The notes under the pieces: generated by a model | Database searches by the model: none | Told to the model about the DNA's origin: nothing | Seen by the model: only the letters and a program-made list of their open reading frames with translations | Shown: positions 2,959 through 49,700 of the stretch, in pieces | Position numbering within the stretch: the stretch's first letter is position 1 | Layout of the letters: each line of letters opens with the position of its first letter | NCBI GenBank assembly: GCA_018671175.1 | Contig: JABHIE010000029.1 | Span: 190,673-254,672, forward strand | DNA from: Planctomycetota bacterium | GTDB lineage: Bacteria; Planctomycetota; UBA1135 | Reading direction: 5' to 3' | DNA: 64,000 bases | Program-made: the position numbers and the translations under genes

Positions 2959-4254
2959 ATGCGCATCCTTCTCATTGGTTCCGGCGGTCGCGAGCATTCA
3001 CTTGCTTGGAAAATCGCTCAATCCCCCCTTCTCGAGCAACTTTGGGTTGCCCCAGGCAATCCCGGCACGGCGCTTCATGGCACCAATGTCGATTTCGATG
3101 TTTCTAATTCAGCGGCCGTTGTGGCCTTTGCGAAAGAACACGAGGTTTCTTTGACGGTTATTGGCCCTGAGGTGCCTCTAGTCGCTGGCCTTGCTGACGA
3201 CCTCCGCGATGCGGGCATTCTGGTCTTTGGCCCATCTAAGGCAGCAGCCGAGCTTGAGGGCTCAAAGGCCTACTGCAAAGAGGTGATGTCGCGTCATCGC
3301 ATCCCTACGGGCGGGCATCGTTTGTTTCGCAATGTAAGCGCGGCTATTAGCTATCTCGAAAGTGATTTGCGATACCCCGTTGTTGTTAAAGCTTCTGGCC
3401 TAGCCGCTGGCAAAGGCGTGGTTATTGCCGAAAGCCCTGAAGTCGCAAAAGAGGCCGTCCGCAATATGATTGAGCGCAAGGCCTTTGGCGACGCCGGAGA
3501 TGTCGTCCTAGTCGAAGAATTTATCAATGGCTACGAGACGAGTGCATTTTGTCTCACCGACGGCAAGACCTTTATTCCACTCGAGACATGTCAAGACCAC
3601 AAGGCCTTGCTCGACGGGGGTAAAGGGCCGAATACGGGTGGTATGGGGGTGATTAGCCCTAATGCTAAAATTTCCGATCGCATGCATGAAGCCATTGAGC
3701 GCGAGGTTATGTTGCCGACCCTACACGGCATGAATCATGAAGGCCGACGCTTTCAAGGTGTCTTGTTTGCGGGCCTGATGATGACTGCCGTTGGCCCTAA
3801 AGTCCTTGAATACAATGTGCGTTTTGGCGACCCTGAGTGTCAGGTTTTGATGATGCGCTTTCAGTCTGATTTGGTGCCATACCTTGAGGCCTGCGCCAAC
3901 GGCACTCTAGAAGAACTTGAAGCTCCAATCTGGGATTCACGCGCTGCTTGTTCCGTTGTTTTAGCTTCCGAAGGCTACCCAGCGGCTTACAAAACGGCCA
4001 TCCCTATTTCGGGCATTGATGCAATCGAGCAAGATGAGACGCTTCAGGTCTTCCATGCTGGCACGGCTTTAGATCGCAAAGGGCAACTTATCACCACTGG
4101 TGGTCGCGTTTTAGCGGTTACAGCCCTTGGCGAAACGATGGGTGAGGCGCGCGACCGTGCCTATGCTGCTTGCGATGCGATTGAGTTCGAGGGCAAGACC
4201 CTTCGTCGTGATATTGGCCGCGCGGCTGCAGATTCTTTTCATCACGCCAAATGA
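2959..4254 (+). CDS. purD: Phosphoribosylamine-glycine ligase
   Basis: [38 protein letters not shown] motifs. Confidence 0.97.
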
Positions 4255-45854: not shown

Positions 45855-46358
45855 CTAAGCCTTAAGCCGCTCTTGTAAGGCCGCGTCTTTTTGTTGGACG
45901 CGGTCTTTTTGTTTTAGCGTGAAAGCATCTAACTGCGTTGCTAACTCGGCATCTGAAACAGCCAAAATCCGGATCGCCAAGAGGGCCGCATTGACTGGGC
46001 CACCAGAATTGGCGCCAAGAGTACCAACCGGGACACCGCCTGGCATCTGTACGGTTGCGAGCAGGGCATCTAGCCCACCTAATGGCGGGTTGTCCATTGG
46101 GATGCCCAATACGGGCAAAGTTGTATGAGCGGCAATGACGCCCGCTAAGTGAGCCGCGCCACCTGCGGCGCAAATGATGACCTCAAGGCCGTTAGCGCGG
46201 GCATCGCTTGCAAATGCGCAAGCCTCTGTAGGGGTGCGATGCGCAGATAAAACGCGCACGGTCGGCTCGACGCCAAATTCGCGAAGAGTCTTGACGCAAG
46301 ATTCTAGGCGGGGGAAATCCGAATCGGATCCCATGAGAAGGGCAACGCGGTTGTTCAT
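45855..46358 (-). CDS. purE: N5-carboxyaminoimidazole ribonucleotide mutase
   Basis: VALLMGSDSDFPRLE, VRVLSAHRTPTEACAFA, AAGGAAHLAGVIAAHTTLPVLGIPM. Confidence 0.95.
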   Translation of the reverse strand: MNNRVALLMGSDSDFPRLESCVKTLREFGVEPTVRVLSAHRTPTEACAFASDARANGLEVIICAAGGAAHLAGVIAAHTTLPVLGIPMDNPPLGGLDALLATVQMPGGVPVGTLGANSGGPVNAALLAIRILAVSDAELATQLDAFTLKQKDRVQQKDAALQERLKA

Positions 46359-46930
46359 GAGTGTTGGGCTTGCAAAGCAGTGCGGAGGAGGGTTTGGAAG
46401 TCAGCCGACGAGCCGGCAGTCTCAGTTGCGGTTTGTGCCGCACGGCGGGCGTCTGCGGGGGAAAACCCTAACTCGCCAAGAACATGAATCAGCTCGGTGC
46501 CCGAGGCTTGGGCGGCGGGCATGGACGCCAATTCGCTGAGATGGTCGCGCAACTCAATGATTAGGCGGTCTGCAGTTTTGCGCCCAATGCCTTTGATTGC
46601 ACAGAGCTCTTTATGATTTTCGTCGAGGATGGCTCGCGCCAAATCGCCAGGAGCAAGAGAACTGAGTAAGGCCAACGCGCAAGATGGGCCCACGCCATTG
46701 ACGCGAAGTAGTCGGCGAAATAAAGCACGCTCGGCTTCTTCTGCAAAACCAAAAAGGACGAGGTTGGTTTCGCTAACCGAGAGGTGTGTGAGCAAGCGCA
46801 TCTTTTGGCCCTCAAGCATTTGCGTGGCCGTGCGCGCGGAAACGCGGAGTTGCCAACCGACGCCACCGACATTGAGGACTACGGAATCGGGCCCCGTTGA
46901 TTCAACGAGGCCCTCTAAGAATGCGTACAT
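46355..46930 (-). CDS. ruvA: Holliday junction DNA helicase subunit RuvA
   Basis: MYAFLEGLVE..., LRVNGVGPSCALALLS, IKGIGRKTADRLIIELRD. Confidence 0.93.
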   Translation of the reverse strand: MYAFLEGLVESTGPDSVVLNVGGVGWQLRVSARTATQMLEGQKMRLLTHLSVSETNLVLFGFAEEAERALFRRLLRVNGVGPSCALALLSSLAPGDLARAILDENHKELCAIKGIGRKTADRLIIELRDHLSELASMPAAQASGTELIHVLGELGFSPADARRAAQTATETAGSSADFQTLLRTALQAQHS

Positions 46931-46941
46931 CGAGTGAGGGG

Positions 46942-48318
46942 TTAGCCTTCGAACTCGGCGTTGTTTCCGCTACCAGAAGAGCGGAGCGAGAGATCAAACT
47001 CAGTGAGGCGAATCTTTAGCTCTTCAAGAGAGGTGATGCCAAAGTTTGGCATCGACATCAAGTCTTCTTCGGAGTAGCGAAGGATGTCACTCACGCGGTG
47101 CAGGTTGAGTCGCTCAACTAAAGCGCGGTGGCAACGAACGGATAGGTTTAGACCAGAAATTTGCAGCTCAAGAGCTTCGCGCATTTCATCGGTGAGTGGG
47201 CCAAGCCAAGCCAGCTCGCGCTCAACATCAAAACCTGAATCGGATTCAAACTCATCAGGCACCAAGAATGTGCCGTCATCGCGGCGCATGCCAAGACGGA
47301 GATTCTTAGCGGTCAGAACGCGTTTGATTTCGTTGAGTGAGGTTTCGCCGAAATTCTTGAACTCAAGAAGCTCAAGCTCGGTGTGGGAAACCAGCTCTTG
47401 CAGACTGCGGATGTCCATCGAGGCCAGGCAATTGCGTGCGCGGACCGAGAGCTCGAAATCAGTAATTGGCGTGCGCAAGACCTTCATGAGTTGGTCGTGG
47501 CGGTGCTCGAGATCCTCGTCGTAGTACATGTCGAGGGACTCATGCGCATCTTGGAAGAACAGGATGGCGCGCTTATCGTTTGGATTTGAGCGGAGTGCTG
47601 CTGAGAAGCAACCGCAAGCCTTTTCGAAGTTGCCTTGGTCTTCGTGAAGAATGCCTGCATTCAGCAAAACCGAAAGTGGCACCGGGCGGTGGGTGAGCAG
47701 CTCGCCGTATTGGCGGAGGGCTTCCTCTTCGTCGCCGTGAAGGTCGGCGCGGTAGGCAAGACGACTGCGCGCTGAAATGTGCGCATCATCGATGGCGATG
47801 GCTTCGCTGTAAGCAGTAGCCGCACCAGTGTATTCGCCATCTTGCTCAAGTAAGCGGCCTTGGAAGTAGAGCTTGTCTGCTTCGGTGACCTTTGCGGTTT
47901 TGAGTGCTTTGCGCAAGCTTTCGAAATTAAGGCAGGCCGTCAAAGCGTGAAGCTCAGCAGCTGCCATCACGGCATCGGCTGAAGTGGAGCAACCTGAAAG
48001 TAACTCACATGCTTCTTGTTTACGGTCTAATTCGCGCAGGCCATCGCCACGGACAAATTTAGAAAGGTCATCTAGGCCGTCACCGGCGCTGTCAATGGCC
48101 TTGCCGTATTCACCGCAAACCCAAGCACCAAGCATGGCCAACTTATCGTTGCCACCTTGACGGGCGTCGCGGACGGCAGATGCGAATTTATCCGCAGCAG
48201 CCGTGTCGTGGAGGTAAGTCGCACGACAGGCAGCCAATTCCGAAGGAGTGGCTGGTGGTGCGGCGAAAAAAGCGGCCGTGTCGACCGTAGAGGGGGCTTC
48301 CAGTTCTTGCATGTTCAT
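46942..48318 (-). CDS. TPR protein with two C-terminal RNA polymerase alpha-CTD-like domains
   Basis: Copy 1 ITDFELSVRARNCLASMDIRSLQELVSHTELELLEFKNFGETSLNEIKRVLTAKNLRLGM and copy 2 ISGLNLSVRCHRALVERLNLHRVSDILRYSEEDLMSMPNFGITSLEELKIRLTEFDLSL match E. coli alphaCTD; N-terminal half is TPR-like. Confidence 0.9.
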   Translation of the reverse strand: MNMQELEAPSTVDTAAFFAAPPATPSELAACRATYLHDTAAADKFASAVRDARQGGNDKLAMLGAWVCGEYGKAIDSAGDGLDDLSKFVRGDGLRELDRKQEACELLSGCSTSADAVMAAAELHALTACLNFESLRKALKTAKVTEADKLYFQGRLLEQDGEYTGAATAYSEAIAIDDAHISARSRLAYRADLHGDEEEALRQYGELLTHRPVPLSVLLNAGILHEDQGNFEKACGCFSAALRSNPNDKRAILFFQDAHESLDMYYDEDLEHRHDQLMKVLRTPITDFELSVRARNCLASMDIRSLQELVSHTELELLEFKNFGETSLNEIKRVLTAKNLRLGMRRDDGTFLVPDEFESDSGFDVERELAWLGPLTDEMREALELQISGLNLSVRCHRALVERLNLHRVSDILRYSEEDLMSMPNFGITSLEELKIRLTEFDLSLRSSGSGNNAEFEG

Positions 48319-48416: not shown

Positions 48417-49700
48417 ATGGATTGCTTCGAGGTTATTGGCGGTACTCCTCTTCAAGGAGAGGTTGAGGTGGCAGGTTCGAAAAATGGCACTCTGCCCTTG
48501 ATGGCAGCGGCCTTGCTCTCGAATGAGAGCAGCCAACTTGATGGTGTCCCCGCTCTTCGAGACATCCATACTCTTGCCGAGCTTTTGTCTTCTTTAGGCT
48601 TAAATACCCGTTTTGTCGCCCAATCCTTGCAATTAGTTCCATCAGGCCAAGACCTTTGGCAAGCTCCATATGACCTAGTGCGCCGTATGCGAGCATCCGT
48701 TTGCGTCTTGGGGCCACTCTTGGCGCGCACAGGTCACGCCTCGGTTCCTTTGCCAGGTGGGTGCGTCTTGGGCGTCCGCCCGATTGACTTGCATCTCCGT
48801 GGCATGGAATCCCTCGGCGCAAAAGTTGATTTGGCTGAAGGGTGCGTTCTGGCGACGGCTCCTAAAGGTGGGCTGCCTGGTGGCGAAGTCGATTTGTCTG
48901 GTCCGCGGGGGTCCACGGTGCTTGGCACGGCCAATGTTTTGATGGCCGCAACTTTGGCTAAGGGCGAGTCGGTCTTGCGCGGTGCTGCGTGCGAGCCAGA
49001 AATCGTAGTGCTTATTGATTTCTTAAATTCTGCGGGCGCTCAAATTGAGGGGGGAGGCACGGCAACTTTAAGAGTTCAGGGGGTCGATGAAATCCATGGC
49101 CTCAAAGGTAATGTCCCTCCAGACCGAATCGAAGCTGGCACTTTGCTTTTGGCCGCCGCCATGACGCGTGGGCATGTCAAATTGACACGCTGCCCCGTGC
49201 CTCAGCTACAGGCTTTGCTTGACACTCTTGAGCTTGCTGGAGTTCCTCTTGAGCGAGGCTCAGATTGGGTTCGCGTCCACGCTGAGGGCGCGATTTTCCG
49301 CAACCCCGTGATTCAGACGGCGCCCTATCCCGGGTATCCGACCGACTTGCAAGCGCAATGGATGGCATTCGCCACGCAGGCCGAGGGCACAACTTTGATT
49401 CGCGAAGGCATTTACCCCGAACGGTTTTTGCATGCGGCTGAGCTCGTCCGCCTTGGTGCGCAAATCGAGGTGTCCGATGGCTCAGCTCGCGTTCATGGGC
49501 CGACTCGTTTAAGCGGTGCGCCCGTATTGGCTTCTGATTTGAGAGCCAGTGCCGCTTTGGTCTTGGCTGGGTTGGTTGCTGAAGGGAAGACCGTTGTCAA
49601 GCGTGTCTACCATCTCGACCGAGGATACGAACGCCTCGAGGAAAAACTTTCCTCTTTAGGCGCAAGTGTGCGGCGAGTCGTAGACGAAATGGGGCCTTAA
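48417..49700 (+). CDS. murA: UDP-N-acetylglucosamine 1-carboxyvinyltransferase
   Basis: VAGSKNGTLPLMAAALL, RASVCVLGPLLARTGHASVPLPGGCVLGVRPIDLHLRG, PPDRIEAGTLL. Confidence 0.96.
   Translation: MDCFEVIGGTPLQGEVEVAGSKNGTLPLMAAALLSNESSQLDGVPALRDIHTLAELLSSLGLNTRFVAQSLQLVPSGQDLWQAPYDLVRRMRASVCVLGPLLARTGHASVPLPGGCVLGVRPIDLHLRGMESLGAKVDLAEGCVLATAPKGGLPGGEVDLSGPRGSTVLGTANVLMAATLAKGESVLRGAACEPEIVVLIDFLNSAGAQIEGGGTATLRVQGVDEIHGLKGNVPPDRIEAGTLLLAAAMTRGHVKLTRCPVPQLQALLDTLELAGVPLERGSDWVRVHAEGAIFRNPVIQTAPYPGYPTDLQAQWMAFATQAEGTTLIREGIYPERFLHAAELVRLGAQIEVSDGSARVHGPTRLSGAPVLASDLRASAALVLAGLVAEGKTVVKRVYHLDRGYERLEEKLSSLGASVRRVVDEMGP

Follow-up and report, generated by a model that had tools for sequence, protein, structure and literature searches.

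What might an alphaCTD do when it is carried by a protein other than RpoA? This RNA polymerase domain, which grips the DNA of promoters, is described in teaching as belonging to RpoA and being tied through it to the polymerase. The stretch of DNA that we analysed (the window; 64,000 nucleotides from contig JABHIE010000029.1 of a Planctomycetota bacterium) contains a gene whose product had been read, in a first-pass annotation made from the sequence alone, as a TPR protein with two tandem alphaCTDs and no alphaNTD, and which had been taken for one odd protein. Here we ask whether the domain reading is correct, how widely the protein occurs, and what role its residues and its gene neighbours suggest.

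Domain architecture and predicted structure

The open reading frame of the TPR protein is real; it begins with an ATG codon, and its features are collected in Table 1. When the product is compared with Pfam, RNA_pol_A_CTD (PF03118) matches in two stretches with 117.1 bits (E 2.9e-34; cut-off 23.8) and TPR_2 (PF07719) matches with 46.9 bits (cut-off 27), the repeats being clearest at residues ~146-252 of the 458, and there is no alphaNTD among the Pfam families matched by the protein. In a profile search of the whole genome, copies 1 and 2 score 75.9 and 52.6 bits separately, each above the RNA_pol_A_CTD cut-off, over segments at ~47311-47496 and ~46999-47187 of the window, respectively. These segments agree with the domain coordinates of the first-pass annotation, and the Pfam result bears out its reading of tandem alphaCTDs and a TPR region without an alphaNTD. 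The NCBIfam RpoA equivalog models align with the protein via their C-terminal ends only, with scores far under their cut-offs. Since 98 of 100 distinct aligned orthologs carry both alphaCTD copies, the paired architecture is not due to chance.

Table 1. Features of the TPR-alphaCTD gene and its adjacent genes, in window positions.
Feature	Position	Strand	Basis and remarks
Whole gene, 458 aa	46942..48318	(-)	ORF and translation, Pfam, AlphaFold mean pLDDT 93
Helical repeat region, residues ~13-263	47530..48282	(-)	Pfam TPR_2/TPR_14; model helices 14-264
Connecting helix, conserved, begins MYYDED, residues 264-280, ahead of copy 1	47479..47529	(-)	Ortholog conservation
alphaCTD copy 1, residues ~281-345	47284..47478	(-)	Pfam, residue table, fold match to alphaCTD-DNA structures
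alphaCTD copy 2, residues ~383-447	46978..47172	(-)	Pfam, residue table
ruvA	46355..46930	(-)	Pfam RuvA_N; 11 bp downstream of the TPR-alphaCTD gene, same strand
murA-type gene, EPSP_synthase family	48417..49700	(+)	Pfam; divergent upstream neighbour

The genome to which the window belongs (2.39 Mb in 36 contigs, 89% complete) encodes exactly three alphaCTDs, two in the TPR protein and one in a normal rpoA that sits on another contig. Unlike RpoA, the protein lacks an alphaNTD, carries its alphaCTDs in tandem on a TPR scaffold, and is encoded by a gene of its own apart from an intact rpoA. With other TPR proteins (PF07719 and relatives) it shares the canonical repeats, but those proteins have no alphaCTD end, and the best PDB and NCBIfam TPR matches cover the repeats only.

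An AlphaFold model of the whole protein, built from 62 aligned orthologs (mean pLDDT 93), shows helices at residues 14-264 followed by two small helical domains. Because a Foldseek search with this model returned TPR proteins among the matches listed, a second model was made of residues 264-458 (pLDDT 86). In Foldseek the C-terminal model superimposes on alphaCTDs with an rmsd of ~1-2 Angstrom over 65-72 residues (E 7e-6), and the fold of the domains is that of the alphaCTD, as had been proposed. The best matches include 9zum, the Caulobacter alphaCTD on AT-rich DNA, and 3n97, the E. coli alphaCTD with sigma4 and UP DNA; further matches are 1lb2 and 3n4m, the E. coli domain with CAP and DNA. 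The pTM values of 0.50-0.70 make the relative placement of the domains in the models unreliable. A generic HhH identity, the alternative that the first-pass annotation had itself raised, was rejected: HHH_5 reaches 13.1 bits against a cut-off of 27, the PDB sequence matches of the C-terminal segments are alphaCTDs, and the fold search agrees with them.

Conservation of the DNA-contact residues

The motifs had been read correctly, with VRARNC in copy 1 (R265, N268 and C269 kept), VRCHRA in copy 2, and NFGxTSL on translation in both copies. In E. coli numbering, residues R293, N296, C297, G324, S327 and E330 of copy 1 are equivalent to R265, N268, C269, G296, S299 and E302, with T326 at the K298 position, and D287 and E289 are equivalent to D259 and E261 at the sigma-contact positions. 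Copy 1 resembles the alphaCTD of RpoA in these DNA-contact residues as well as in fold. In copy 2, R395, G427, S430 and E433 are equivalent to R265, G296, S299 and E302, and Arg398 and Ala399 stand at the N268 and C269 positions. The DNA-contact positions on our list other than R265 and N268 are known from the UP-element literature. Contact of the alphaCTD with DNA through R265 and N268 has been described (PMC11434276).

We tabulated these positions, in E. coli numbering, for 100 copy-1, 98 copy-2 and 29 RpoA alphaCTDs. Copy 1 has R265 in 100%, N268 in 98%, C269 in 95%, G296 in 100%, T298 in 93%, S299 in 98% and E302 in 99% of the domains (n = 100); the corresponding values for the phylum's RpoA are R265 100%, N268 93%, C269 100%, G296 100%, T298 100%, Ser or Thr at 299 96% and E302 100% (n = 29). 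NLGQTVL is the sequence in RpoA of the window's genome, whose S299 position is occupied by Val; the other sampled RpoA proteins have Thr or Ser there. At the sigma-contact positions, copy 1 has D259 in 92% (Glu in 7%) and E261 in 95% (Asp in 4%), and both are more variable in the phylum's RpoA than in copy 1. Copy 2 has R265 in 98%, G296 in 94%, T298 in 92%, S299 in 93% and E302 in 98%, with Arg or Lys at the N268 position in 87% and Ala at the C269 position in 54% (n = 98).

The Thr at the K298 position is present in both copies, as had been pointed out, but it is a departure from E. coli only and the norm for the phylum, whose RpoA shares it with the TPR protein. Since Thr298 occurs in 29 of the 29 sampled RpoA alphaCTDs, that of the window's genome included, it is no sign of lost DNA binding. 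The idea that loss of K298 means dead DNA binding was rejected, Thr being fixed in the RpoA sample.

Compared with the mean over the domain, conservation is higher at the seven DNA-contact positions of copy 1 (0.976 vs 0.789, permutation p 0.0035), of copy 2 (0.84 vs 0.61, p 0.005) and of RpoA (0.92 vs 0.70, p 0.004). Since G296, E302 and C269 may also support the fold, this conservation alone is not proof of DNA binding. By permutation, no significant excess over the mean is seen at the sigma/activator faces (D259/E261 and the 287 region). Copy 1 domains from the 17 genomes that have both genes are on average 62.5% identical to one another, against 56.8% for the RpoA alphaCTD and 50.1% for copy 2, and mean identity to the E. 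coli alphaCTD is 52% for copy 1 and 48% for the phylum's RpoA.

Conservation in the TPR region also extends beyond the TPR consensus, with N220 and D257 kept in 80 of 80 orthologs and R186 and R250 each in 62 of 80. From TPR numbering we infer that these four residues face the groove, with N220 falling on position 6 of one A helix and R250 on position 2 of the next. Carboxylate-clamp TPRs grip their peptide at such A-helix positions. M264, D267 and E268 of the connecting helix are kept in 77-79 of 80 orthologs.

Distribution and descent

A whole-protein search of 294 genomes spread over Planctomycetota gave a strong match (E below 1e-25) in 276 of them; RpoA-type-only matches lay between 1e-11 and 1e-14, and a single genome with a match of 1e-23 was not counted. 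The gene is near-universal in the phylum, and the impression of one odd protein is not borne out. All 18 genomes without a strong match are incomplete assemblies, the best of them ~92-93% complete. In the window's own family, the full match is missing from G293 and G307 and present at a contig edge in G305, which belongs to the same genus as G293. Real loss of the gene was rejected as an explanation, given that the match-less genomes are at most ~93% complete and that the congener G305 carries the gene.

A separate Pfam domain search covered 59 genomes, at least 95% complete except the window's own, and found alphaCTDs in all 59, in each case more than the one of RpoA: exactly three in 51 genomes (one in RpoA and two in the TPR protein), four to six in five, and two in three genomes that belong to one genus. 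Two of the 100 orthologs (L069 and L133, the latter from the two-alphaCTD genus) have lost copy 2 while keeping copy 1, which points to copy 1 as the part that cannot be dispensed with.

A scan of 84,980 genomes, which needs near-exact peptides and so does not speak for absence elsewhere, returned 23 loci, all from Planctomycetota, Planctomycetales or Phycisphaerae save one from an uncultured bacterium. Plasmid and phage collections yielded no full-length match, the matches there being mostly RpoA-type segments, and a mobile or phage origin was rejected on this ground. A FastTree tree places copy 1, copy 2 and the RpoA alphaCTD in separate groups with support of 0.99, 0.58 (weak) and 0.96, respectively. 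Given these three groups, the duplication is probably older than the radiation of the phylum, with no later homogenisation between the copies and RpoA.

The alphaCTD is also found outside RpoA in stand-alone proteins of planctomycetes and phages, which differ from the TPR protein in having ~70-160 residues, one domain and no TPR. Two planctomycete genomes from separate families encode such proteins of 94 and 133 residues (L162:6252-6536(+) and L163:6033-6434(-)), which carry VRTTNC...NFGEKTL and represent a second, separate alphaCTD family; their genes share two neighbours, encoding a membrane-type protein that starts MxRWFRxxEKKRG and a protein of 133-146 residues. Single-alphaCTD proteins of 72-75 residues on IMG/VR viral contigs (the ORF ending at 3276(+) in L150/L151, and L153:2971-3189(+)) carry VRxRKC...KNFGxTSLNEV and group with copy 2; L151 also has a 664-aa ORF resembling a large terminase. 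On viral contig L152, an ORF from ~1371(+) encodes ~294 residues with an apparent sigma-region-4/HTH segment followed by an alphaCTD, and has no PHROG match. Weak matches of the TPR protein's alphaCTD segment to BREX PglW (NF033442, 23 bits against a cut-off of 990) and beta-prime (NF011498, 16 against 1437) suggest that the module occurs in further proteins too, ones with other domains and functions than the TPR-alphaCTD protein.

Gene neighbourhood

In the window, the TPR-alphaCTD gene is followed by ruvA and then purE, and on its opposite side lie the murA-type gene and ffh in divergent orientation. Among 78 loci compared, ruvA is near the gene in 45, mostly directly after it, and a murA/ffh/rpsP group is present in 22-28, nearly always on the opposite strand (the murA cluster in 28, often then ffh). 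Other families have the order gene-ruvA-ruvB-queH-spoIID-tgt-yajC-secD, whole or in part, and locus L070 has gene-ruvC-ruvA. The names ruvA, ruvC, SpoIID, EPSP synthase, AIR carboxylase and SRP54 were assigned by Pfam and those of other neighbours by sequence reading. At locus L063, an ORF for a DksA/TraR-like zinc-finger protein lies directly upstream of the gene (-708 to -223). We regard the neighbourhood as a conserved housekeeping position, which may, but need not, involve a functional link to Ruv.

Proposed role

With moderate confidence, we propose that Planctomycetota may have in this protein a transcription factor which is inherited vertically, occurs throughout the phylum and supplies a pair of alphaCTDs in trans. 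Copy 1 would bind promoter-proximal, AT-rich minor-groove DNA via the alphaCTD face R265/N268/G296/S299, and its D259 and E261 would contact sigma region 4. Copy 2 would make a second contact with DNA or a partner, weaker or tuned differently, and the TPR superhelix would bind a peptide of a partner and link it to the promoter or the polymerase. In E. coli, the alphaCTD 261 positions touch sigma K593/R596; RpoD, a sigma70 of the same genome, carries TRERVRQIEAKAVRKLQHP, in which the equivalents of K593 and R596 are preserved. Any effect on transcription is inferred, as are the binding of DNA, the contact with sigma and the capture of a peptide by the TPR region. An UP-element-binding factor, a bridge to RNAP and a decoy had all been suggested for the protein. 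The retention of the DNA-contact residues and D259/E261 in copy 1 fits UP-element or sigma binding or RNAP bridging, and does not separate activator, decoy and bridge from one another.

Several properties count against a transcription factor. The whole protein has a net charge of ~ -31, which is unusual for a stand-alone DNA binder, copy 2 is without N268, and the genes that recur beside it are ruvA, murA and ffh and not RNAP genes. An acidic protein whose copy 2 is without N268 might instead be a protein binder or decoy, in which case the alphaCTDs would titrate or reroute activators, Spx-like factors, NusA or sigma4 off DNA and the TPR region would serve as scaffold. Such an adaptor would suit a strongly acidic protein whose copy 2 has lost both N268 and C269 and whose copy 1 retains the 261 and 287 faces, and the alphaCTD is a known activator hub (PMC11434276). 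We nevertheless think it unlikely, as the most conserved part of copy 1 is the DNA face and not the partner faces alone.

Similarly, the linkage to ruvA leaves room for a repair role, with the HhH-type alphaCTDs holding DNA and the TPR region holding a Ruv protein as an accessory to RuvA/RuvC at DNA junctions. RuvA is also an HhH protein, the 45 loci with ruvA close by come from distant families, and L070 adds ruvC. However, ruvA is not nearby in many loci, and in several families the ruv-queH-spoIID-tgt-yajC-secD neighbours are ordinary housekeeping genes, so that the position of the gene may reflect deep inheritance only. The domains, moreover, are alphaCTDs with sigma-contact positions and not generic HhH domains, and we consider a repair function distinctly improbable. 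The structural matches include elongation and coupling complexes and there is some ffh/rpsP linkage, which would be in keeping with a coupling factor for elongation or for translation, copy 1 replacing the alphaCTD toward elongation factors of the NusA kind and the TPR region contacting other machinery. Those structural matches, however, are again the RpoA domain, seen as part of further complexes, nothing points specifically to coupling, and this role seems very unlikely to us.

Returning to the transcription factor, a more far-reaching form of the proposal is that it is universal and possibly essential as a general factor. Promoters might then be read by up to four alphaCTDs, a second pair being provided in trans on a TPR protein, with one of the two TPR-borne domains more constrained than that of RpoA. 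We put this forward only tentatively, and somewhat doubt it.

The alphaCTD and the TPR are each already known, and we expect that automatic annotation very likely labels the protein already; in the open PMC literature we found no paper describing the architecture of a TPR region with paired alphaCTDs. What appears to be new, judged from sequence comparison, is a second alphaCTD carrier that is fixed phylum-wide and has one copy more constrained than that of RpoA. A genetic system is available in Planctopirus limnophila (PMC10632474). Should the protein work at promoters, transcription in planctomycetes would involve a general component that is absent from models based on E. coli.
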